Origin: Thermodesulfobacteriota bacterium
GTDB taxonomy: Bacteria > Desulfobacterota > Desulfobacteria > Desulfobacterales > RPRI01
Length of the DNA: 13,180 nucleotides
Direction of reading: 5' to 3'
Assembly (NCBI GenBank): GCA_030836965.1
Contig: JAUPLM010000090.1
Coordinates: 1 to 13,180, forward strand
Shown here: piece by piece, positions 74 through 11,030 of the stretch
How positions within the stretch are numbered: the first letter of the stretch is position 1
Layout of the letters: each line of letters starts with the position of its first letter
Made by a program: the position numbers and the translations under genes
Notes under the pieces: model-generated
Database searches by the model: none
What the model saw: only the letters and a program-made list of their open reading frames with translations
Told to the model about the DNA's origin: nothing

Positions 74-94
74 CAGGGTTTTTGAACAGATCAC

Positions 95-325
95 CTGAAG
101 CCATGTCAGGGTATGGGCTCATGCGATCTGCCGGAAAATATACAGTGACATAATCAACGCCCCCGGTTGATCGACAAAGATCAGACAGGCAAAGATAAAT
201 AACGGCTTCGTGAGCACTTATCCTCTGAGGCTGTTCGGAACTGATGGATGCGGATTTGTTGCCGTTGCAGAAATAAGGAAAGAATCCGGCGGATCGCATG
301 AGCCCATACCCTGATATGGCTTCAG
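95..325. repeat. Large palindromic element, copy 1 (40-bp arms around a 151-bp core)
   Basis: The left arm (95-134) and right arm (286-325) are reverse complements at 38 of 40 positions. Both mismatches (G105 with T315, T129 with G291) would be G-U pairs in RNA. The core (135-285) contains a small hairpin ATCAAC/GTTGAT at about 153-171 and a conserved pair AACGGC (201-206) and GCCGTT (261-266). The core is clearly related to that of the second copy at 10785-11007, while the arms share no visible similarity with the arms of that copy. No open reading frame of note and no transposase is present. The element fills most of the gap between the NuoE-like tail and the hoxF-like gene. It could be a non-autonomous mobile element, a structured RNA or both. 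Confidence 0.85.
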
Positions 326-403
326 ATTAGGCGTTATGCAACTTTCTCACAGAGCTGATTATTTAAGAGTTTATCAACCTTTTTAAAGAGAGGGAGAACT
401 CGG

Positions 404-3400
404 ATGAATCGATTAACTCCTGAAAGCCTGAACAAGCTTAGTTCCGAGATGAACCGTTTCATGGCCGTCCGTTTCATAGACGATATTCCCGCAGGGCGTC
501 CGGTTTATCCTTATCATCTGATGATTTGCGGTGGTACAGGCTGTCATGCATCCAAAAGTATGGAAATAGTCCACCGCCTTGCCGACGCAATTGAACGGAG
601 GCAAATCGGGGATAAGGTAATTATTATCGAGACAGGCTGCAACGGATTCTGTGCTCAGGGGCCGGTCATGGTTGTCTACCCCGGTGGCATTTTTTATGAG
701 TACCTGAAAGCCGACCATGTCGATGAAATACTTGACCGGCATATTCTTAAAGGTGATCCCGTTGAAAATTTCATGTATCACGATCCTGTCACCGGCCGCG
801 TTATCCCCCGTTTGAAGGATATCCCGTTCTTTTCCATGCAGCAGACCCGGGTACTGAGAAACAAGGGGTTAATAGCAGCCGAGCGTATTGATGAATACAT
901 AGGAACCGGCGGGTACCTGGGTGCATGTAAAGCGCTTTTTGAAATGAATTCCGAGGATATTGTAAAAGAGATCAAGATTTCAGGCCTGCGCGGGCGTGGC
1001 GGCGCAGGATTTCCCACCGGTCTGAAATGGGAATTTGCCAGCCGTTCACCGGGTCCGGTCAAATACATTCTCTGCAATGCCGATGAAGGTGATCCGGGAG
1101 CGTTCATGGACCGGAGCGTGCTTGAGGCCGACCCCAATTCAGTTCTTGAAGGCATGATTATCGCGGCCAAGGCAATCGGATCTCATCAGGGGTATATATA
1201 CTGCCGGGCTGAATATCCGCTTGCCGTCAAACGGCTCAATATCGCCATCGAACAGGCACGCCATTACGGTCTTCTCGGGAAAGATATACTGGGTTCGGGT
1301 TTTGACTTTGACCTTGAGATATACAGGGGCGCCGGAGCTTTTGTATGCGGAGAGGAAACAGCTCTTATGACCTCTATCGAGGGGAAGCGGGGCACACCCC
1401 GTCCAAGGCCGCCATTCCCGGCCGTTTCCGGTTTATGGAAAAAACCGACTGTTTTAAACAATGTCGAAACTCTGGCCAGCGTGGCACAAATCATCATTCA
1501 CGGAGGGAAATGGTATGCGGAGCTTGGTACCTTGCGCAGCAAGGGATCCAAAATCTTCGCCGTTACCGGAGACGTCAACAATGTCGGGCTGGTTGAAGTT
1601 CCTATGGGAACTGCTCTGGGCGATATTATCTTCGATATTGCAGGCGGCATTCCGAAAGGGAAAAAGTTCAAAGCCGTGCAGCTTGGAGGTCCTTCCGGAG
1701 GTTGTATACCGGGGCAGCATCTGAACACGCCTGTTGATTATGAGTCGCTTACCCAGCTTGGAGCGATCATGGGATCCGGCGGCATGATCGTAATGAATGA
1801 AGACAAATGCATGGTGGATGTCGCGCGGTTTTTCATGGATTTTTGCGCCGATGAGTCTTGCGGCAAATGCACTCCGTGCCGGGTGGGAACACGCAAGATG
1901 CTCGAAGTGCTTACCAGGATCTGCGAAGGCAAAGGCAGGTCCGGAGACATTGAAACCCTGGAGAGGTGGGCGGATATAATGCGTAATACCGCTTTGTGCG
2001 GTCTCGGCCAAACGGCTTCCAATCCTGTGCTTTCCACGCTCAGGTATTTCCGCCATGAATATGAATCCCATATCCTGGAGAAACGATGCCCGGCAGTTGT
2101 ATGTGCCGGAATTTTCGATGCTCCATGCAAGCATGCCTGTCCGGTCGGCATGGATATACCCGACTATATAGCGCTGATCCGGGAGAACAGAATAGAGGAT
2201 GCATACAAGGTGCTGTTAAAAACCAATCCGTTTCCAAGCATCTGCGGGCGGGTCTGCGAACACCGCTGCGAGCTGAAATGCAGACGATCCATGATGGATG
2301 AACCTATCAGCATAAAATACCTTAAACGATATATAACAGATCATGCGGGGAGGCCGCCCGTCAAGTCTGCGGCTGTGACGCGCAAGGAAAAGATTGCCGT
2401 CATCGGCGCAGGTCCGTCAGGACTGACTGCCGCCAGGGATCTGGCTATGCGCGGCTACAGGGTAACAATTTTTGACCAGTCCCCCGAGGCCGGTGGAATG
2501 CTGAGATGGGCCATTCCTGCTTACCGCCTTCCCCGTGATGTGCTCCGGCGGGAAATTCAGGACATCTTTGATCTGGGAGTCGAATTTAAGGGAAATATCT
2601 GCATCGGCAGAGATCTTTCGTGGGAGGAGATTGCAGGCCGGTTTCAGGCGGTATATCTGGCCATCGGCGCTCAGCGGAGCGCTGCGGCTGATTTGCAAAG
2701 TATCGAAGGTGTCCGTGTGTCAGGCGCGGTAGAGTATCTCAGGGAGTATAATCTCGGTCACAATCCGTATACCGGCCGGAAGGTCGTGGTTGTCGGCGGA
2801 GGTAATGCGGCTATCGATGCAGCCCGCTGCGCTGTCAGGCTGGGAGCTGAAGATGCGGCCATTCTCTATCGTCGCCAGAAAGCCGATATGCCGGCTCAGC
2901 CGGACGAGATTCTGGCAGCGGAACAGGAGGGTGTCCGGATATGCGTCATGGGCGCTCCCCTGCGGTTTGAAGAAACGGCAGGCCCGCTGAAAAAACTTAT
3001 CTGCCAGCGTATGACCCTCGGTGAATTTGACGCCGGCGCGAGACGAAAACCGGTTCCGGCAACAGGTGATCAGTTTGTGATGGAAACAGATCATGTCATA
3101 CTTGCAATAGGACAACAACTTGATGTTGCAGGTGACATACGAAGCACCGGGGTGGGGATCAGCCGCAGAGGCCTGATCGAAATTATGCCTGACAAAAAAA
3201 GCCGGACTGCGGGAACGATGATATTTGCAGGTGGAGATGCTGTCAGGGGGCCTGATACGGTAATCGGCGCTATTTCCGACGGCCACGCGGCTGCCGTAGA
3301 AATAGATTCGGCCATACGGGAAAGAAACGCGGAACCTGCCTATGAGCCGCCCCAGCCGGAAGCAATTGTAATTCCCGGATTACCGGAAGCTCAGACCGAA

Positions 3401-3556
3401 TCAAAACCAAGGGTATCAATGCCCGAAGCCGATCCGGCTCAACGTAAAACGGATTTCAGGGAGGTTGAGCTCGGATTTACTTCCGGTGCGGCGCTTGAAG
3501 AGGCCGGTCGCTGTCTCCGGTGCAATCTTAAGGAAGTTGAAGCCGGGGAATCCTGA
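404..3556 (+). CDS. hoxF: HoxF/NuoF-like flavoprotein fused to a GltD/NfnB-like NAD(P)-binding module
   Basis: This is the diaphorase subunit of a soluble hydrogenase, 1050 residues, far longer than a plain NuoF (about 430-600). Residues 37-115 form a thioredoxin-like [2Fe-2S] domain with C42, C47, C79 and C83. The NuoF core follows: FMN/NADH motifs GLRGRGGAGFPTGLKW (194-209), CNADEGDPGAF (224-234) and CGEETA (315-320), an SLBB region, then the [4Fe-4S] motif ESCGKCTPCR with C486, C489, C492 and a later C532. From about 560 comes a GltD/NfnB-like part: eight cysteines (562, 567, 575, 579, 614, 618, 622, 626) suited to two [4Fe-4S] clusters, an FAD motif GAGPSG (668-673), a second Rossmann motif VVGGGNAAIDAA (796-807) and the FAD-closing GGDAVRGPDTVIGAI (943-957). 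A terminal CxxC is at 1037-1040. The start ATG follows AGGGAG (391-396) by 7 bases. NADH oxidation or NAD reduction is expected from the NuoF part. In NfnB the GltD-like part carries the bifurcating FAD and binds NADPH; the same role here is inference. Confidence 0.9.
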   Translation: MNRLTPESLNKLSSEMNRFMAVRFIDDIPAGRPVYPYHLMICGGTGCHASKSMEIVHRLADAIERRQIGDKVIIIETGCNGFCAQGPVMVVYPGGIFYEYLKADHVDEILDRHILKGDPVENFMYHDPVTGRVIPRLKDIPFFSMQQTRVLRNKGLIAAERIDEYIGTGGYLGACKALFEMNSEDIVKEIKISGLRGRGGAGFPTGLKWEFASRSPGPVKYILCNADEGDPGAFMDRSVLEADPNSVLEGMIIAAKAIGSHQGYIYCRAEYPLAVKRLNIAIEQARHYGLLGKDILGSGFDFDLEIYRGAGAFVCGEETALMTSIEGKRGTPRPRPPFPAVSGLWKKPTVLNNVETLASVAQIIIHGGKWYAELGTLRSKGSKIFAVTGDVNNVGLVEVPMGTALGDIIFDIAGGIPKGKKFKAVQLGGPSGGCIPGQHLNTPVDYESLTQLGAIMGSGGMIVMNEDKCMVDVARFFMDFCADESCGKCTPCRVGTRKMLEVLTRICEGKGRSGDIETLERWADIMRNTALCGLGQTASNPVLSTLRYFRHEYESHILEKRCPAVVCAGIFDAPCKHACPVGMDIPDYIALIRENRIEDAYKVLLKTNPFPSICGRVCEHRCELKCRRSMMDEPISIKYLKRYITDHAGRPPVKSAAVTRKEKIAVIGAGPSGLTAARDLAMRGYRVTIFDQSPEAGGMLRWAIPAYRLPRDVLRREIQDIFDLGVEFKGNICIGRDLSWEEIAGRFQAVYLAIGAQRSAAADLQSIEGVRVSGAVEYLREYNLGHNPYTGRKVVVVGGGNAAIDAARCAVRLGAEDAAILYRRQKADMPAQPDEILAAEQEGVRICVMGAPLRFEETAGPLKKLICQRMTLGEFDAGARRKPVPATGDQFVMETDHVILAIGQQLDVAGDIRSTGVGISRRGLIEIMPDKKSRTAGTMIFAGGDAVRGPDTVIGAISDGHAAAVEIDSAIRERNAEPAYEPPQPEAIVIPGLPEAQTESKPRVSMPEADPAQRKTDFREVELGFTSGAALEEAGRCLRCNLKEVEAGES

Positions 3557-3605
3557 ACTTATCGCAAAGCAGGCAGGCTGTTAATACGCAAAGGAGAAAA
3601 TGTAA

Positions 3606-5675
3606 ATGGAAAATATTCCAAAGCAGGTAAACGTGACTATTGACGGTTTCCGGTTATCTGTTCCGGAAGGAATGACGATCCTGGAAGCCGCCCGTGAAAA
3701 CAACATCCGGATACCTACCCTTTGCCATCATCCTGCGTTGTCGGCATGGGGCGGATGCCGCCTGTGCGTTGTTCAGGTGGATGGCAGTCCCAAACTTGCA
3801 GCAAGTTGCGTTATGCCGGTGCGTGATGGAATGACGGTCATTACGAACAGCAGCAATATCATTGCCGCACGCCGCACGATTCTGGAGTTTCTGTTTGCCG
3901 AGCGGAATCACTATTGCATGTTCTGTTCCCAGAGCGGGGATTGCGAATTACAGGCGCTGGCATATGAACTGCAGATGGATCATCTCACAGTGCCTAACTC
4001 CTATGAGCAGTTCCCCGTTGATATTACAAGTGAATATATGGCGATTGACCATAATCGCTGTGTGCTTTGCGGACGATGCGTTCGTGCCTGCCGTGAGATT
4101 GCTGGAGCATATGTTCTCAATTATCAGGGACGCGGCATACGGAATCAGGTTACTTTTGACCTTGATGTGAGCCGGGGTGAATCCTCCTGCATGGGCTGCG
4201 GGGCATGCCTGCAGGTTTGTCCCACCGGAGCTATTTTTAACCGCTACCGTACTCATCGTACGGTGAAAGGACATCCTAAAGAGAAACTTATAGCCTCGGA
4301 TGCTTTTTGTCCCAATTGCGGCCTGATGTGCGAAACTCGCACTATTACGGAGGATAATCAGCTGATCCGGATTGACGGCCTTATCACGCCCGGCATCCTG
4401 GGTCCCGAGCGCGGCCAATTGTGCGTAAAAGGACGCTTTGAGCCTCTGAAAACCCCGGGTAAACGACTATTTTACCCTATGATCAGGGAAGATGACGGCA
4501 TATGGAAGAAGGTCTCGTGGAAAGCGGCCATGGATCTGGTAGAAAAGAGTATGAGTACAAGAAAAAAGGGGACGTTCGGGCTGGCTTCCAGCCGATGCGC
4601 CAACGAACATCTCATGATATTCCGTGATCTCATGCTTAAAGGCTGGGCGGCCGATTCACTGGATACTCTTGACGGCCGTTCCCTCAGAAATCTGGCCGGC
4701 GCATGGAAAGAGATGGGGAAGACTTTTCTTGGACTGAAAGAGGCTCCCTGGCAGCGCATATCCGATGCAGACCATATTTTTATAGATGGCGCAGATTCTT
4801 TTAAAACCCAGCCGCTGATAGGAGGATTGATAAGGCGGGCGATTATCGAAAAAGGAAGTACTGCGTTTACTATCGGAACAAATGATCCGGTCAGCCCCTG
4901 GAGTACCGGTTTTGTGCCTGTGGCTGCCGGAAATGAACAGCCCGTAATGGCGGCATTCCTGGCTCAGTCGCTCAGAATCCATACTCCTCAACTGTCGCCG
5001 GGCTGGGAACCGGTTCTTTCAGAGATGAAAAAGTTAAATGTGCAGAGCTGTCTGGATCAGGCCGGTATGGATGATTCCGCAAAAGCAGCGTTTATGGCTG
5101 CGGTTGATGCATTTGTGAAGAGCAGGAATCCGATAATCATTGCAGGGAAGGAAATTACCGATCTGCCGCAGAACGGCAGTTTATGCCATCTGATGCTCCT
5201 GTCGCTGCTCAAGGGTATTTTGCCTGAAAATGCACTGAGGTTTGTGATTCTCAAAGAAAACGGCAACAGCGCGGGGGCTCTGAGGCTTGCAATACGCTCA
5301 GGAACACCGGCCGGGAGATGGAAGCGCGGACTGATGATGCTGGATGATGAGGATCTCCAGGACTCGCCGGTTCCGGAGCAGCTAACCGGCGCGGAATTTC
5401 TGGCTGTAATAACTCCTTATTTCCCGGAAGCTCTGAAAGATGTCGCTCATGTACTTATTCCGAGGCCTTCATTGCTTGAAGAGGAAGGAACATATACTTC
5501 TCTTGACGGGTATAAAACCCGCACCCTGTATCCTATCCTGAAGAGGCCGAAAGATGTGAGTGAGTCCTGGCAAACTCTGCTGGCTCTGATGCAGCGCACC
5601 GAGTTCCATCCCAGTTATGCAAGGTGGAAAGATATAAGAGAAAGAGTTGCCGGCGAAATGCAATCCGGACTGTAA
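3606..5675 (+). CDS. hoxU: NuoG/HoxU-like iron-sulfur electron-transfer subunit with a molybdopterin-oxidoreductase-like C-terminal region
   Basis: This subunit would wire the flavoprotein to the hydrogenase small subunit. Its N-terminus is a plant-type [2Fe-2S] domain with C40, C51, C54 and C68. Next is a His-Cys [4Fe-4S] site: H102, C104, C107 and C113. The one-residue gap between His and the first Cys is the HoxU-type spacing as I recall it, unlike the three-residue gap of NuoG. Two ferredoxin-type [4Fe-4S] sites follow (C152, C155, C158, C162; C195, C198, C201, C205), then an FdhA-type [4Fe-4S] site (C235, C238, C242, C273). Residues about 290-689 resemble the molybdopterin-binding fold of NuoG and formate dehydrogenases. 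No catalytic Cys or Sec is seen in the expected region around LDGRSLRNL, and the C-terminal dinucleotide-binding domain appears absent, so this part is probably structural. At 689 residues it is much longer than typical HoxU (about 240). AAGGAG at 3591-3596 precedes the ATG by 9 bases. Confidence 0.87.
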   Translation: MENIPKQVNVTIDGFRLSVPEGMTILEAARENNIRIPTLCHHPALSAWGGCRLCVVQVDGSPKLAASCVMPVRDGMTVITNSSNIIAARRTILEFLFAERNHYCMFCSQSGDCELQALAYELQMDHLTVPNSYEQFPVDITSEYMAIDHNRCVLCGRCVRACREIAGAYVLNYQGRGIRNQVTFDLDVSRGESSCMGCGACLQVCPTGAIFNRYRTHRTVKGHPKEKLIASDAFCPNCGLMCETRTITEDNQLIRIDGLITPGILGPERGQLCVKGRFEPLKTPGKRLFYPMIREDDGIWKKVSWKAAMDLVEKSMSTRKKGTFGLASSRCANEHLMIFRDLMLKGWAADSLDTLDGRSLRNLAGAWKEMGKTFLGLKEAPWQRISDADHIFIDGADSFKTQPLIGGLIRRAIIEKGSTAFTIGTNDPVSPWSTGFVPVAAGNEQPVMAAFLAQSLRIHTPQLSPGWEPVLSEMKKLNVQSCLDQAGMDDSAKAAFMAAVDAFVKSRNPIIIAGKEITDLPQNGSLCHLMLLSLLKGILPENALRFVILKENGNSAGALRLAIRSGTPAGRWKRGLMMLDDEDLQDSPVPEQLTGAEFLAVITPYFPEALKDVAHVLIPRPSLLEEEGTYTSLDGYKTRTLYPILKRPKDVSESWQTLLALMQRTEFHPSYARWKDIRERVAGEMQSGL

Positions 5676-5697
5676 ACTGTTTTATGGAGGTGAGTTA

Positions 5698-6243
5698 ATG
5701 ACAAAACCTAAAGTGGCTACTGTATGGTTGGAAGGATGTGCCGGATGCCACATGTCTTTCCTGGATCTGGACGAGAAACTTCCGGATGTGCTTGCGGCTG
5801 TTGATCTTACCGTAAGTCCGGTTACGGACTTCAAGAATTTCGATTTTGGTTCTCTAACAGTGGGAATTATAGAAGGCGGCATCGGCAATAAGGAACAGGA
5901 GGAGGTCGCAGTTAAACTGAGGGAGCATTGCACAATCCTTATCGCGTGGGGCGACTGCGCCGTTTTTGGCGGAATCAATACTCTGCGTAATGCAATTCCG
6001 GTAATGGAACTGATGCGCTATGGCTATCAGGCGACAGCCGGCACGGTTTCGGGTGTTCTGCCGGTCAACGAAGAATTGCCGGTTCTTCTGGATCAGGTGA
6101 TTCCGGTCAATCAGTTGGTAAAGGTGGATGTGTATGTTCCCGGATGTCCGCCTTCTCCGGAAGCCATTGCTTACTGCCTTACGGAAATATTAAAGGGACG
6201 AATGCCGGTCGTCCTTCCCCCGAGCATGATGCACTTTGACTGA
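5698..6243 (+). CDS. hoxY: [NiFe]-hydrogenase small subunit, HoxY-like
   Basis: The 181-residue protein is a short, soluble-type small subunit that would bind the proximal [4Fe-4S] cluster and pass electrons between the Ni-Fe site and the HoxU-like subunit. The four expected ligands are visible: C14 and C17 in WLEGCAGCHMSFLD, C87 in WGDCAVFGG and C150 in VPGCPPSPEAI. There is no twin-arginine signal peptide and no extra ferredoxin-like C-terminal domain, so it is cytoplasmic and of the group 3 type. The chosen ATG is preceded by TGGAGGTGA (5685-5693); an in-frame ATG at 5647 overlaps the upstream gene and lacks this site. It lies 22 bases after the HoxU-like gene and its stop lies just before the large-subunit start, as in one operon. 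Confidence 0.92.
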   Translation: MTKPKVATVWLEGCAGCHMSFLDLDEKLPDVLAAVDLTVSPVTDFKNFDFGSLTVGIIEGGIGNKEQEEVAVKLREHCTILIAWGDCAVFGGINTLRNAIPVMELMRYGYQATAGTVSGVLPVNEELPVLLDQVIPVNQLVKVDVYVPGCPPSPEAIAYCLTEILKGRMPVVLPPSMMHFD

Positions 6244-6256
6244 GGAGACCTATTAT

Positions 6257-7687
6257 ATGAGCGACAATCGAAAAATAACAATAAATCCGATTTCCCGTAT
6301 TGAAGGCCATGGCAAAGTAGTAATCCATCTGGATTCGGACGGCAATGTGGAGGACGCGAAATTTCATGTCACCCAGTTCAGGGGGTATGAACGGTTTTGC
6401 CAGGGCCGGCCTTTTGAGGAAATGCCGATCATAACACAGCGAATCTGCGGAATCTGTCCGGTCAGTCATCAGCTGGCTTCAGCCAAGGCGTGTGATGCCA
6501 TTCTGGGTGTGAGAATTCCTGATACGGCCACGGCACTGAGAAGGCTTATACATATGGGGCAGTTTATCCAGTCGCATGCGCTCCATTTCTTTTATCTTGC
6601 AAGCCCGGATCTGCTTTTCGGATGGGACTCTGATCCTGAGGTGCGTAATGTGGTAGGCGTGATAGGGGCTTATCCGGCGATAGCAAAAAAGGGTATACAT
6701 CTTAGAAAATTCGGCCAGGATGTAATAAGAGCCCTTGGCGGGAAAAGCGTACACCCAGCTTATGCAATTCCGGGAGGCGTTATTAACTGTCTGGCGGAAC
6801 GGGAGAGGGATAATCTCCTGACCGGATTTGCACAGGCCTATGATGCCTGTTATACAGCCCTGGATTTCATCAAGGAATGGCTTGAAAAAAACCGGTTCGA
6901 AATCAAACGGTTTGCCAATTACGAATCGCTCCTGGCCGGCCTTGTGGATGATGCCGGTTGTCCGGATATGTACAACGGCAAGCTGAGGATACGGCACAGC
7001 TCAGGAACTCCCGGGGTGGAGTTTGATCCTGAGGATTACCTGAAATTTATAGCCGAACATGTCGAGAGCTGGTCCTACCTGAAATTCCCTTATTTCAAAG
7101 AGCATGGATTTCCACAAGGTTTTTACCGGGTAGGGCCACTGGCCAGGATCAATATGGCCGATGCGGTGAGCACGCCCAAAGCTCAGGCCGAGTTGCTGAT
7201 ATACAGGGAAAAAACACGCGACGGATTGAGCGGGTCCACTCTTCTGTTTCATTACGCCAGGATGATCGAACTGCTTAACTGCCTGGAAGCAGCCGAAAAA
7301 CTATTGCAGAGCGAAGCCATCTGCGGTACGGATATCCAGAATCGAGGGCATGTTTCAAACAACGAAGGGGTCGGGGTGATCGAGGCTCCTCGCGGAACCC
7401 TCATCCACCATTACAAGGTGGATAAACATGGTGTTATTGAAGACGTAAATCTGATTGTGGCTACAGGACACAATAATTATGCAATGAATCTATCCGTAGG
7501 CATGGTTGCGTAGGAAGATATCCGTGAGGGGCGAGTGCGTGAGGGCATATTAAACCGTATCGAAGGCGCCATCAGGTGTTATGATCCATGCCTTTCCTGC
7601 TCGACCCACGCCCTTGGTCAAATGCCGCTCCATGTCCAGGTTTACAGCAAAGAAGGGCAACTGCTGGTTCAACTTCAAAAGGACTGA
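6257..7687 (+). CDS. hoxH: [NiFe]-hydrogenase large subunit, HoxH-like, interrupted by an in-frame TAG at codon 419
   Basis: This is the catalytic subunit carrying the Ni-Fe(CN)2CO centre. The N-terminal L1 motif [10 protein letters not shown] provides C64 and C67, preceded by [11 protein letters not shown] near the start. The family region [11 protein letters not shown] and [14 protein letters not shown] follows, then a TAG at 7511-7513. Beyond it the same frame continues with [20 protein letters not shown], giving C445 and C448 (L2 motif), the H451-A452 maturation cleavage site, a 25-residue C-terminal peptide and a TGA at 7685-7687, 476 codons in all. The 418-residue product ending at TAG would lack two Ni ligands and be inactive. 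ATG at 6257 follows GAGGAG (6242-6247) by 9 bases; a TTG at 6236 lies inside hoxY and is unlikely. It could be a recent pseudogene, a sequencing error, a read-through or pyrrolysine codon, or a split subunit. Confidence 0.85.
7511..7513 (+). other. In-frame TAG (amber) codon inside hoxH
   Basis: The codon falls between VGMVA and [11 protein letters not shown], 26 codons before the first L2 cysteine. Length and motif spacing on both sides fit an uninterrupted large subunit, so a single-base substitution rather than an indel explains it best; CAG, AAG and GAG are one step away. TAG also appears to end the left-edge gene (71-73) and the universal stress protein gene (11031-11033), so it is not absent as a normal stop here. 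Confidence 0.9.
7514..7687 (+). pseudogene. HoxH C-terminal segment (L2 motif and cleaved tail) downstream of the amber codon
   Basis: These 57 sense codons are in the hoxH frame and fully conserved in character: [16 protein letters not shown] is the canonical L2 box of group 3 large subunits. No further stop or frameshift is present. A GTG at 7535 with GAGGGG (7526-7531) only 3 bases ahead could allow internal initiation, giving a 50-residue peptide with both Ni-binding cysteines, but the spacing is poor. The segment also carries the ribosome binding site of the protease gene. It is marked as a pseudogene piece only because of the upstream stop; it may well be translated as part of hoxH. Confidence 0.6.
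7677..7683 (+). promoter_or_regulatory. Ribosome binding site of the hydrogenase protease gene, inside the hoxH tail
   Basis: AAAAGGA overlaps the last hoxH codons and lies 7 bases before the GTG at 7691. It supports that start over later candidates and implies translational coupling to the end of the full-length hoxH frame, beyond the amber codon. Confidence 0.6.
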
Positions 7688-7690
7688 CAA

Positions 7691-8263
7691 GTGAATGTTT
7701 TTCAGAACGCTGAAAAGGTAAACTTCCTGATCATCGGCTTTGGCAACCGCCATCGCAGGGACGACGGTATAGGACCGTATGTGTCGGATCAGTTGAAGTT
7801 GAGCCTTGGAAATACCCCCGGTATCCGGATTGTATCTCTTCATCAGCTTGGTCCCGAACTGGCGGAAGATCTGTGGACCGCGACCGGGGTTATTTTTATC
7901 GACGCTGACAACGGGCCGCTGCCGGGAGGTTGTTCATGGAGCGATGTCCGGCCGGTTTCCGGCATGAACAGGAATATCCACAGCCTGCTAGTAAACACCT
8001 TGCTGGGAATGACGCAATTAATTTATAACCGGTGTCCGCCGGCATGGATGGTTTCGGTTAAGGGATATGATTTTGGTTTCGGCGAGGGATTGAGCCCGGA
8101 AGCGGCAGATAGCGCAAACCGGGCAGCCGGGGAAATAATCAATTTTATCATGAACGGCTTTGTAAATCCCGCGCAGAATGCGTCAGCGTATTCCTCTGCT
8201 GGTTCGTGTGATCCGATGTTATGTACCGCTAGGCTGATTAATAACAGGAAAGGTTTAATATAA
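7691..8263 (+). CDS. hoxW: Hydrogenase maturation endopeptidase, HyaD/HybD/HoxW family
   Basis: The 190-residue protein should remove the C-terminal peptide of the large subunit after Ni insertion, cutting at the His-Ala junction of the L2 motif. The family signature GFGNRHRRDDGIG is at 16-28, with D25 at the position of the metal-binding Glu/Asp of HybD. FIDADNG (69-75) offers D71 and RNIHSLL (94-100) offers H97, matching the three Ni-sensing ligands of the family. It starts with GTG 3 bases after the hoxH TGA. The last 40 or so residues have no motif I recognise. An intact protease in this position argues that the hoxH tail is, or until recently was, translated. Confidence 0.88.
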   Translation: MNVFQNAEKVNFLIIGFGNRHRRDDGIGPYVSDQLKLSLGNTPGIRIVSLHQLGPELAEDLWTATGVIFIDADNGPLPGGCSWSDVRPVSGMNRNIHSLLVNTLLGMTQLIYNRCPPAWMVSVKGYDFGFGEGLSPEAADSANRAAGEIINFIMNGFVNPAQNASAYSSAGSCDPMLCTARLINNRKGLI

Positions 8264-8273
8264 GGAGCAAACC

Positions 8274-8687
8274 ATGGGCGGCTTAACCGACATACTGATC
8301 ATTGATGATGACAAAGATCTGGTTCAGGCGATGCAGATCATTCTGGAACGGCATAATTACGGTGTCCGGGTAGCCTATAACGGAAAAGAGGGGTATGATA
8401 AAATAGAAGCAAAGCCCCCCGATCTTGTTATACTTGATGTCATGATGGCGACCGATACCGAAGGGTTCGATCTGGCATATAAGCTGAAACAGCTTCCCGA
8501 ATACCGGAATATCCCAATTGTAATGGCGACATCCTTTCCCCGGACTATGGCCGAGCAGGGACCGGAGAGGTTTCAGCACATACTGGGTGAATCATGGCCG
8601 GTATCGCACTTTATAGAGAAGCCCATTGATCCTGAGGAATTGCTGTCGGTTATCGGAAAAATACTTTCTGAGTGTAAAACGGAATAA
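8274..8687 (+). CDS. Single-domain response regulator (CheY-like receiver)
   Basis: The 137-residue protein is one receiver domain with no output domain. The acidic pocket is D11, D12 and D13 in LIIDDDKD, the phosphoacceptor is D55 in VILDVMM, the switch threonine is T86 and the conserved lysine is K116 in FIEKPID. AGGAG (8263-8267) lies 6 bases before the ATG and overlaps the end of the protease gene, so it is probably cotranscribed with the hydrogenase genes. Having no DNA-binding domain, it would act by protein contact or in a phosphorelay. The histidine kinase 165 bases downstream is the obvious candidate partner, though this is inferred from position only. Confidence 0.9.
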   Translation: MGGLTDILIIDDDKDLVQAMQIILERHNYGVRVAYNGKEGYDKIEAKPPDLVILDVMMATDTEGFDLAYKLKQLPEYRNIPIVMATSFPRTMAEQGPERFQHILGESWPVSHFIEKPIDPEELLSVIGKILSECKTE

Positions 8688-8708
8688 TGAAGATTTCGTA
8701 AAAAAATT

Positions 8709-8798
8709 ATTCTCACACAAAGCTCACGGAGGAGGCAACGAAAAACCTGAATACTTTTATTATATCTTTCTTAGTGCCTTTGTGCCTTCGTGTGAGAA
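8709..8798. repeat. Imperfect hairpin repeat of the ctttgtgcctt/tgtgagaa type
   Basis: The left half begins TTCTCACACAAAG (about 8709-8722) and the right half ends CTTCGTGTGAGAA (8786-8798). Together they form an interrupted inverted repeat around an AT-rich centre. The right half repeats the unit CCTTTGTGCCTTCGTG. Similar degenerate hairpins made of CTTTGTGCCTT-like units are, to my knowledge, common between genes in environmental Proteobacteria and Desulfobacterota. A T-rich stretch at 8805-8809 follows, so it might work as a weak terminator between the response regulator and the kinase. The short reading frame crossing it is not a credible gene. Confidence 0.65.
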
Positions 8799-8852
8799 GT
8801 TGACTTTTTACTAGTCCGTCAAATATAGTTTCCTGCGGAAGGAGGCCTGCTG

Positions 8853-10736
8853 GTGCGACTCGGATACGAGCTTATCAGAGAACAGTTGTTCTTCCGCAAA
8901 GAACTTATTGAACGATTGCCATGGTTAATCCGGTTAAGATGGATAGTGGCTGTTGCCGGTATAACAGCGTACGTTGCCGTTTATTTTTTACGGCAGACAT
9001 TGCTGCCGCTCCCTTTGGCGATGATTCTTTTCACCGTTTTTCTGTACAATCTTCTTTTCAGGTTCATCTGGCAGCACGCCCTTCCCTTTAAATATCAGAA
9101 TGACCCTTCATCGACCCAATCGCATGTTTATAATGCCCGGGAAGTTCAATCGTTCAGTATTTTTGCCCATGTCCAGATATCAGCCGACCTTCTGGCCCTT
9201 TTTATGGCAATTTACTATTCAGGAGGTATCCGCAGTCCGTTTGCACATTTTTTCATATTTCATATAATCCTGGCCGGAATCCTGCTGACGCCGGCAAGCT
9301 GCTATATTTATGGAATACTTGTTTTCATGATGATGGGCGGTCTCATTTTGCTCCAGCAATGGTCGCTGGTCCCCATATATACGGTATGGTTTCAGAATGT
9401 CCCGTTATCCGGTGAATTCACGCCAAACGAGATCATCATCCGGTATTTTACGCTGGTAACGGTTATTATTGTCACGGCATTTCTGGTGACGACCATAAAG
9501 CTGGGCCTCAGAACCAAAGGGAGAGAACTGCTCAGGCTGTCAAAAGCGCTTGACGAGAGCAACAGCAAGCTCACGGCTCTCTATGAGATGGTCCGGGAAA
9601 TGGGGCTATGTTCGGAAAAACAAGCTCTGATGGATTCAGCAACCCGCCGGGCTGCCGGAATAATGGGAGTAAAGGCATGTTCCATCAAATTAATTGATGA
9701 ACAGAAGGGGACTCTTCGCTTCGCTTCAACTTACGGACTCAGTGAAGATTACACCAAATCGAAAGACGGTATTGATATTAATAAGAGCCCGATCAACCGG
9801 AAAATAATCGAAGGTTCCTTCAGCGCCATAGGGAATATTGAGGAAAGGGACTATTTCCAGTACCCGGAAGATATCCTGAAAGAAGGGATTGCATCCATGA
9901 TCTGCCTTCCCCTTCGTGTTGACAAGATGGTTCTCGGCGTATTCTGCGTATACAGCAAAACAGCGCGCTATTTTACAGAAAGCGATGTCAGGTTTTTTGC
10001 TCTGATGGCCAGCCTGACCGCGCTGGAAATTGAAAAACTCAACGCACAGCTCAACCGTACCTGGTTTTTACAAAAAGTCGCCCATCAGCTCCGCTCTCCG
10101 TTGCATGCTGTTGCCGGCCTGCTCAAGATATTGCAAAACGGTTATCTTGGCCCGGTAAATGTCCGGCAGGAAGAGACTCTTCTACGCTGTGAAAAACGGC
10201 TGGAGATATCGGACAGCTTAATCAGCGATCTGCTCAGATTGAGCATCAGACGGGAAACTCTGATCCGCGAGGAACTGCATCTGGTGAATGCGCGGCAGGT
10301 ACTGCTCTCTTTATCGGAAATGTTTGAAACTCAGGCGAGGGAAAAATCCATAGATATTGCCTACCGGATTGATGAGACGCTGCCGGCCATACAGGCAACA
10401 GAAAGACTGCTCGACGATCTCTTTTCGAATCTGATTTCAAATGCCGTAAAATATACGCCGCCCGGAGGGAGTATTACTGTCAGTCTGTCGCGAAGCGATG
10501 AAGATAAAATAAGGCTTGATGTTGCTGATACGGGTATCGGTATTCCGGAAGATGCCTCTTTACACCTGTTTACAGAGTTCTTCAGAGCCGAAAACGCCAA
10601 GGCCTTTACTGAGGCGGGAACCGGACTTGGCCTGGTTATTGTCAAGGAAATACTCGACCAGTTGAAAGGTACGGTTTCCGTCAAAAGCCGTGTCGGTGAA
10701 GGAAGCACATTTACCTGCCATATTCCCATAAGGTGA
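8853..10736 (+). CDS. Membrane-bound sensor histidine kinase with GAF domain
   Basis: The 627-residue protein has six predicted membrane helices in its first 220 residues (about 29-48, 50-73, 107-123, 130-147, 150-168, 197-217) with no large extracytoplasmic loop, so it probably senses within the membrane or through the GAF domain at about 240-395. The HisKA region has H411 in VAHQLRSPLHAV. The ATPase domain shows the N box NLISNAVKYTPPGG (526-539), G1 DTGIGIP (559-565) and G2 GTGLGLVIVKEI (589-600). There is no receiver domain, so phosphate must pass to a separate protein such as the preceding response regulator. It starts with GTG; AAGGAGG (8839-8845) is 7 bases upstream. The signal is unknown. 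Confidence 0.9.
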   Translation: MRLGYELIREQLFFRKELIERLPWLIRLRWIVAVAGITAYVAVYFLRQTLLPLPLAMILFTVFLYNLLFRFIWQHALPFKYQNDPSSTQSHVYNAREVQSFSIFAHVQISADLLALFMAIYYSGGIRSPFAHFFIFHIILAGILLTPASCYIYGILVFMMMGGLILLQQWSLVPIYTVWFQNVPLSGEFTPNEIIIRYFTLVTVIIVTAFLVTTIKLGLRTKGRELLRLSKALDESNSKLTALYEMVREMGLCSEKQALMDSATRRAAGIMGVKACSIKLIDEQKGTLRFASTYGLSEDYTKSKDGIDINKSPINRKIIEGSFSAIGNIEERDYFQYPEDILKEGIASMICLPLRVDKMVLGVFCVYSKTARYFTESDVRFFALMASLTALEIEKLNAQLNRTWFLQKVAHQLRSPLHAVAGLLKILQNGYLGPVNVRQEETLLRCEKRLEISDSLISDLLRLSIRRETLIREELHLVNARQVLLSLSEMFETQAREKSIDIAYRIDETLPAIQATERLLDDLFSNLISNAVKYTPPGGSITVSLSRSDEDKIRLDVADTGIGIPEDASLHLFTEFFRAENAKAFTEAGTGLGLVIVKEILDQLKGTVSVKSRVGEGSTFTCHIPIR

Positions 10737-10784
10737 TCGGACCGGTATATACACGAGTCAAGCCTTTCAACTTGAGACCTTTAA

Positions 10785-11007
10785 AGGCCGGCAGACATAT
10801 CCGGTTTTGCCGTTTTGCAAGAAATTATTATGAAACATAACAACGCCCCCTGATTGTCAACAAATAGACAAAGGCAGAGACGAAATAACGGCTTCGTGGG
10901 TTTAAATCCTCTGGGGCTGTCCAGGTCTGATTGGAGCGGATATGCTGCCGTTGACAAAGCCTTTTCCGATCTTGCCAAACGGCAAAACCGGATATGTTTG
11001 CCGGCCT
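10785..11007. repeat. Large palindromic element, copy 2 (37-bp arms around a 149-bp core)
   Basis: The left arm (10785-10821) and right arm (10971-11007) are reverse complements at 35 of 37 positions; the mismatches are G10794 with T10998 and T10816 with C10976. The core 10822-10970 aligns with the core of copy 1 at a nearly constant offset of 10686 bases: an ungapped hand count over 155-266 against 10841-10952 gives about 77 of 112 identical. Identical blocks include CAACGCCCCC, AACGGCTTCG and GCCGTT. The arms bear no resemblance to those of copy 1. It occupies the gap between the convergent kinase and universal stress protein genes, where its stem could end transcription from both sides, although no T-run follows. 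Confidence 0.85.
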
Positions 11008-11030
11008 AATATCGGATAAATACAGGTCCC

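Follow-up and report, generated by a model that had tools for sequence, protein, structure and literature searches.

The window, meaning the whole 13,180-nt stretch of contig JAUPLM010000090.1 that was analysed, comes from a Thermodesulfobacteriota bacterium and carries two palindromes. The first lies just upstream of a NuoF-like gene, beside hydrogenase genes, and the second is flanked on one side by a histidine kinase gene and on the other by a convergent universal-stress-protein gene. A repeat search confirmed the earlier observation that the palindromes are two copies of one small element, with related cores in constant register and arms that are 95% complementary within each copy. The two cores are direct repeats at a constant offset of 10,686 bases and share 77% and 79% identity, while the arms of copy 1 and copy 2 are, as originally predicted, unlike each other. 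The predicted arms and core are real, but the limits first given to the element were too narrow, as degenerate terminal repeats are found outside the arms. The features are as follows.

74..94 (boundary approximate), + strand: copy 1, left outer terminal repeat, degenerate; read by eye in the 32-copy alignment
95..135, + strand: copy 1, left arm; inverted repeat, 41 nt, 95% complementary
136..284, + strand: copy 1, conserved core; family alignment and search of its own genome
285..325, + strand: copy 1, right arm; inverted repeat with 95..135, 149 nt apart
326..348 (boundary approximate), + strand: copy 1, right outer repeat, ATTAGGCGTTATGCAACTTTCTC; the family end in reverse
10774..10784, + strand: copy 2, left outer repeat, GAGACCTTTAA, shortened; by eye against the family end
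10785..10822, + strand: copy 2, left arm; inverted repeat, 38 nt, 95% complementary
10823..10969, + strand: copy 2, conserved core; 30 matches in its own genome and a covariance-model match
10970..11007, + strand: copy 2, right arm; inverted repeat with 10785..10822, 147 nt apart
11008..11030 (boundary approximate), + strand: copy 2, right outer repeat, degenerate; by eye against the family end

Both copies fold far better than shuffled sequences (z of -11.3 for copy 1 and -9.9 for copy 2; 0 of 200 shuffles as good). The covariance-model match to copy 2 spans 10823-10970 (E 6e-30), copy 2 itself being a row of the model. The core of copy 1 contains GCCCC in the 159-163 region and a GGCAA/TTGCC variant of the second of the two core helices described below. 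Elsewhere in the window, the nickel-dependent hydrogenase frame (PF00374; 6236-7687) stops at a TAG at 7511-7513, and a stretch that by eye resembles the usual C terminus runs on in frame beyond it. This TAG may be an in-frame amber stop, a sequencing error or a case of recoding.

The genome from which the window comes (hereafter the source genome) is represented by 2.14 Mb in 442 contigs and is 64% complete. Searches of it gave 29 matches with copy 1 and 30 with copy 2, corresponding to 36 places, 32 of them with a core; four of the 36, which scored under 70, were dropped before the 32 were aligned. The original prediction had depended on the existence of further copies, and at least 32 are present in this genome. 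After exclusion of the five aligned copies at a contig end, all 27 remaining copies have inverted arms. The complete unit, as seen in the best-kept copies of genome G002, is roughly 280 bp long and gene-less, and consists of a core of approximately 150 nt, inverted arms of 33-46 bp and short ends. Aligned copies extend past the arms to GAGASCTTTGMATA at both ends, which form terminal inverted repeats, and the flanks between these repeats and the arms differ at the two ends of the element. Both ends could be read by script in 24 of 69 copies from the genus, and eight of these 24 have an exact 5-bp target duplication, where about 0.02 would be expected by chance. The transposition itself, with its target duplications, looks like that of an ordinary DNA element. 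The best-kept G002 copies are 96-98% identical across the ~280-bp unit, which indicates that some movement is recent. The end pattern was found in nine of 10 same-genus genomes (the source genome included), with a single match for the reversed control. The gene to the right of window copy 2 is matched in G002 (88% over 1,658 bases); its left neighbour is unmatched in the stretch compared, and no empty site for this copy is readable in G002. In a search for an autonomous partner, no transposase with these ends was found: none of the four matches to the transposase family PF01609 in genome G001 had element ends in its stretch, and the end-bearing loci that were inspected were, where classable, core-bearing or core-less copies or members of a second MITE family. 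A search with one exact core pattern found no viral contigs with the core. The family probably consists of non-autonomous, MITE-like DNA transposable elements of Desulfobacterota.

The second MITE family, of about 130-200 bp, is unrelated and occurs in the same genus (L270, L273, L277, L285 and others). It has the same GAGASCTTTG end, and its ends read GAGACCTTTGCATAACRCCCCC... at one side and GAGACCTTTGAAGAAC at the other. At locus L044 of the source genome, the left flank matches genome G007 (L132) and the right flank matches G002 (L264); the core type differs at the left flank common to L044 and L132, as if copies had recombined. The element also lies between the same two homologous genes, presumably dsrP and murA, in genomes of two families of the order (L002 on contig C48 of the source genome and L133 on C26 of G024). 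This common position may be a coincidence, an old insertion or a preferred site.

The core is found well beyond the genus. A DNA search detected it in seven of 59 genomes, the source genome included. One exact pattern was matched by 40 stretches of named genomes, whose titles were all those of Desulfobacterales, Desulfobacteraceae, Deltaproteobacteria or Proteobacteria MAGs. A covariance model (R1) was trained on loci from several of the genomes searched, so that part of its matches are not independent. Within the order it found the core in 21 genomes out of 340, representing nine families, and across the phylum in five out of 395, three of which belong to one family outside the order. Inverted arms surround the core in 19 of 22 newly fetched loci and were not found at L317, L320 and L327. 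The arms are matched within copies and lineage-specific between genomes, those of G024, G059 and G033 still being recognisably alike. The ends vary as well. In G059 and G060 they are GAGGGGTCGGGGAGTTT, with an exact 8-bp duplication in five of nine copies; in G468 they are GTAACTTCTCAAAAAGTC, with an exact duplication in none of five copies and seven of eight bases duplicated in two of the five; and in G133 and G206 they are TTATTACTCCGGCAA. Homologous cores thus sit on at least two types of end, with 5- or 8-bp duplications. Two kinds of outer flank surround homologous arm-core-arm units in G024 alone, and the core is present in eight of the nine G024 loci with a GAGGGG end. The core is older than the arms and ends.

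Covariation between the arms of a stem is standard proof of a functional RNA. As originally proposed, the arms remain paired although their sequence changes, and this was seen in nearly every lineage examined. The same departure from consensus occurred in both arms 465 times in 59 copies of the genus, compared with a mean of 166 (maximum 225) when right arms were shuffled among copies. The corresponding values are 89 compared with 18 (maximum 31) in 30 copies of G024 and 52 compared with 19 (maximum 38) in 12 copies of G059, all for copies with enough flank only. The G024 statistics come from 30 loci among the 95 matches listed, several of which are pieces of one copy, with 40 of 126 candidates scored. 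Since subfamily structure inflates counts of this kind, rare states are the better test: where a state is present in two arms and no more, both arms belong to the same copy in seven of 13 cases in the genus, 17 of 26 in G024 and eight of 11 in G059. Departures in one arm are common (473 in the genus, 99 in G024 and 43 in G059), and the nearest arm is a copy's own opposite arm in only 12 of 59, 18 of 30 and six of 12 copies, respectively, indicating that correction is incomplete. Copies in the genus have, on average, a closer neighbour in an arm of another copy (0.14-0.15) than in their own opposite arm (0.22, from an alignment that takes in non-arm bases). At one orthologous site (L042 in the source genome and L099 in G002), a matched C-G/T-A change is found in both arms, together with one-arm differences; in the orthologous-looking pair L032/L110, a paired change in the arms was not clear.

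If pairing were selected in an RNA, single-arm mismatches should be mostly G-U. The counts were 39 G-U to 34 A-C in the source genome and 25 to 16 in G024, and the pooled excess (64 to 50) is not significant (p 0.22). Within G024, the arms are as variable (diversity 0.178) as the non-block core (0.164), with the outer flanks at 0.211 and 0.228. Compensatory change under RNA selection, one of the readings first proposed, is not supported as the main cause of arm pairing by either result, nor by the orientation of the segment between the arms.

Three groups have arm-core-arm units in both orientations when the ends are taken as reference. Judged against the outer flanks, 16 of the 30 G024 copies lie one way and 14 the opposite way, with 11 orientation changes on the core tree out of a possible maximum of 14, most inner branches of this tree being weak. 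Among the 13 copies of G059 and G060 the numbers are five and eight, with three changes among 12 on the core tree, and among 58 copies of the genus they are 16 and 28, the other 14 being unclear. One genus subfamily has a single orientation only (by eye), while G133 and G206, with one copy each, have opposite orientations (by eye). No pair of orthologous copies with opposite orientations was found. The occurrence of both orientations points to exchange between the arms at the DNA level. Arm pairing therefore seems to be kept mainly at that level, and template switching from one arm to the other would be the simplest means. The covariation is real, but RNA selection explains it less well than correction of the arms in the DNA does. 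The suggestion that the element is copied as folded single-stranded DNA would hold in part if replication fold-back is the cause of the correction; the transposition itself looks ordinary.

Four blocks of the core are conserved between lineages, namely CACGCCCCC, CAGGCAGAGACGA, TGGGGCTG and GCTGCCG. The potential helices GCCCC/GGGGC and GGCAG/CTGCC, with about 96% of cells paired, are interleaved and would form a pseudoknot. GGCAG/CTGCC has 95.6% of its cells paired and two-sided changes in two of its pairs, one of which was top-ranked in a scan of 120 cores. These helices were assessed in an alignment of 36 of 38 references (L095 and L189 left out) chosen from the 120 cores. The two 5-bp helices together have six two-sided cells compared with 1.0 in shuffles, and none of the 500 shuffles reached six, although relatedness of the cores inflates this count; the number of pairs was reached by 30 of 500 shuffles and the number of pair types by 332 of 500. 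The consensus fold of the core is weak apart from these helices (-5.85 kcal/mol). The inner stem AACGGC/GCCGTT of the original prediction is present in both window copies, but as a family stem it was rejected, with 61.6% of cells paired in the 36 aligned cores and all 500 shuffles pairing at least as well. Its 3′ strand overlaps the 3′ strand of GGCAG/CTGCC. In several copies of separate lineages, a palindrome of the GTCCGCC..GGCGGAC type takes the place of the core's short apical hairpin (L009, L039, L040 and L051 in the source genome; L136, L138 and L358 in G024). The original prediction had recognised no named family, and the copies tested matched none in Rfam 15: there were no matches for the window at gathering scores, for copy 2 with E values of up to 5 allowed, or for five other loci with a limit of 0.5.

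Conservation of the blocks between lineages, together with weak constraint among the G024 copies (diversity 0.115 compared with 0.164 in the non-block core, p 0.036), suggests that it is propagation that depends on the blocks, and not a function of individual copies for the host. The core could act as folded single-stranded DNA, as a binding site for a protein or in RNA form, and its conserved blocks, with the possible pseudoknot, suggest that it may have a cis-acting or RNA role in propagation. A bolder reading, which is conceivable and put forward tentatively, is that the core represents a functional, pseudoknotted nucleic acid of a new class and is itself the selfish unit. It would have spread through Desulfobacterota on unrelated MITE ends, inside a self-correcting invertible hairpin whose sequence is irrelevant and whose pairing is not, and it might be a ribozyme-like or protein-recruiting RNA or folded single-stranded DNA.

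It is rather unlikely that the element is a structured non-coding RNA gene dispersed by transposition, with a functional core and arms that form a long closing stem kept by compensatory mutation. Such an RNA would account for unrelated arms at near-constant spacing around the core in many lineages, for the conserved blocks and the possible pseudoknot (95.8% of cells paired; six two-sided changes compared with 1.0 in 500 shuffles), and for the slightly lower block diversity in G024. It is at odds with the lack of a significant G-U over A-C excess in the arms, the presence of the core in both orientations relative to the ends and its loss from orthologous sites (below). The core consensus fold is also weak beyond the named helices, pair-type counts are no better than shuffled ones while relatedness inflates the rest, and the copies tested matched no Rfam family.

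Some elements have the same ends but lack a core. At the G002 sites orthologous to L009 and L040 of the source genome, only ends and arm fragments are kept, with no core, and L009 and its G002 counterpart have the same 5-bp duplication, CTTTA. L339 in G060 has a perfect inner hairpin with a four-base loop and an exact 8-bp duplication. The core-less forms at the two orthologous sites look like deletions because pieces of arm remain, and core loss fits both palindrome deletion and a host without need of single copies. The original prediction had also raised the insertion of a core into pre-existing palindromes. In its fullest form, with the core as an independent unit that entered palindromes or MITEs more than once and in either orientation, this is improbable. 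Homologous cores on different ends, the two kinds of outer flank in G024 and the existence of core-less elements with the same ends speak for it, and it may yet apply to a deep origin of the family. Against it, the orthologous core-less forms keep arm fragments, as deletion would leave, and the core has arms in 27 of 27 source-genome copies uncut by a contig end and in 19 of 22 newly fetched loci. A programmed switch, in which a site-specific recombinase flips the core to control neighbouring genes, is very improbable, since arms that differ between copies, and wholly between lineages, leave no fixed recombination site and the copies are dispersed in their tens, even though both orientations occur in three groups and copy 1 lies just upstream of the NuoF-like gene beside the hydrogenase genes.

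The explanation we favour, and consider probable as a whole, is a MITE-like family with DNA-level arm correction, an inverting core and cis-acting core blocks. After insertion, a copy would be mostly free of selection. One arm would be copied onto the other, and the core inverted, when the polymerase switches template from arm to arm or by some other exchange between them. The arms would therefore change together and remain complementary as their sequence is gradually replaced. Instability of the palindrome would delete the core from some copies. Least surely, the core may be kept between lineages because its blocks, possibly pseudoknotted, act in cis in propagation.

In dispersed copies, strong arm covariation is better explained by a DNA process, of which inversion of the loop is the tell-tale. 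DNA-level arm correction is accordingly a confounder for covariation-based RNA discovery, as it imitates the signature of a conserved RNA. The core, present in at least 10 families (nine of the order and one outside it) and on different ends, is also a concrete target in its own right for a new structured element.

No description of the element was found in titles and abstract openings among the literature matches listed, in which subscription papers are thinly covered. The element is best classed as a MITE-like family: the kind is known, and what is unusual is its hairpin core, which is conserved and invertible. Like bacterial MITEs, it is short, gene-less and multi-copy, with terminal inverted repeats and target duplications; unlike them, it has an inner palindrome and a conserved core of ~150 nt that occurs in both orientations and on unrelated ends. 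A Geobacter MITE is reportedly located inside an operon. HEARO and omega RNAs are mobile structured RNAs that are likewise multi-copy with a structured core, a resemblance that we draw from general knowledge, whereas the element copies tested matched no Rfam 15 family. The MITE-like M1 and M2 repeats of pithoviruses, compared here by description and not by sequence, are also palindromic, with arms of ~50 bp and putative target duplications, and their similarity patterns have been read as possible concerted evolution (PMC10664404). M1 and M2 differ in their 37-bp internal sequence, TA duplication and giant-virus hosts, and a conserved invertible core is not among the features described for them in that report (PMC10664404). 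The closest parallel in mechanism is template switching between inverted-repeat arms, which in yeast genes leads to arm homogenisation together with inversion of the spacer (PMC8604942), and template-switch correction of inverted repeats has also been described for RNA hairpins (PMC8794818). The spacers inverted in yeast are 2-5 bp (PMC8604942), whereas those found here are about 150 nt, in dispersed bacterial copies with orientations near balance. Because the published spacers are far shorter than 150 nt, homologous recombination between the arms, which would leave similar traces, is an equal candidate to template switching. The present family would allow arm correction and inversion to be measured in bacteria.
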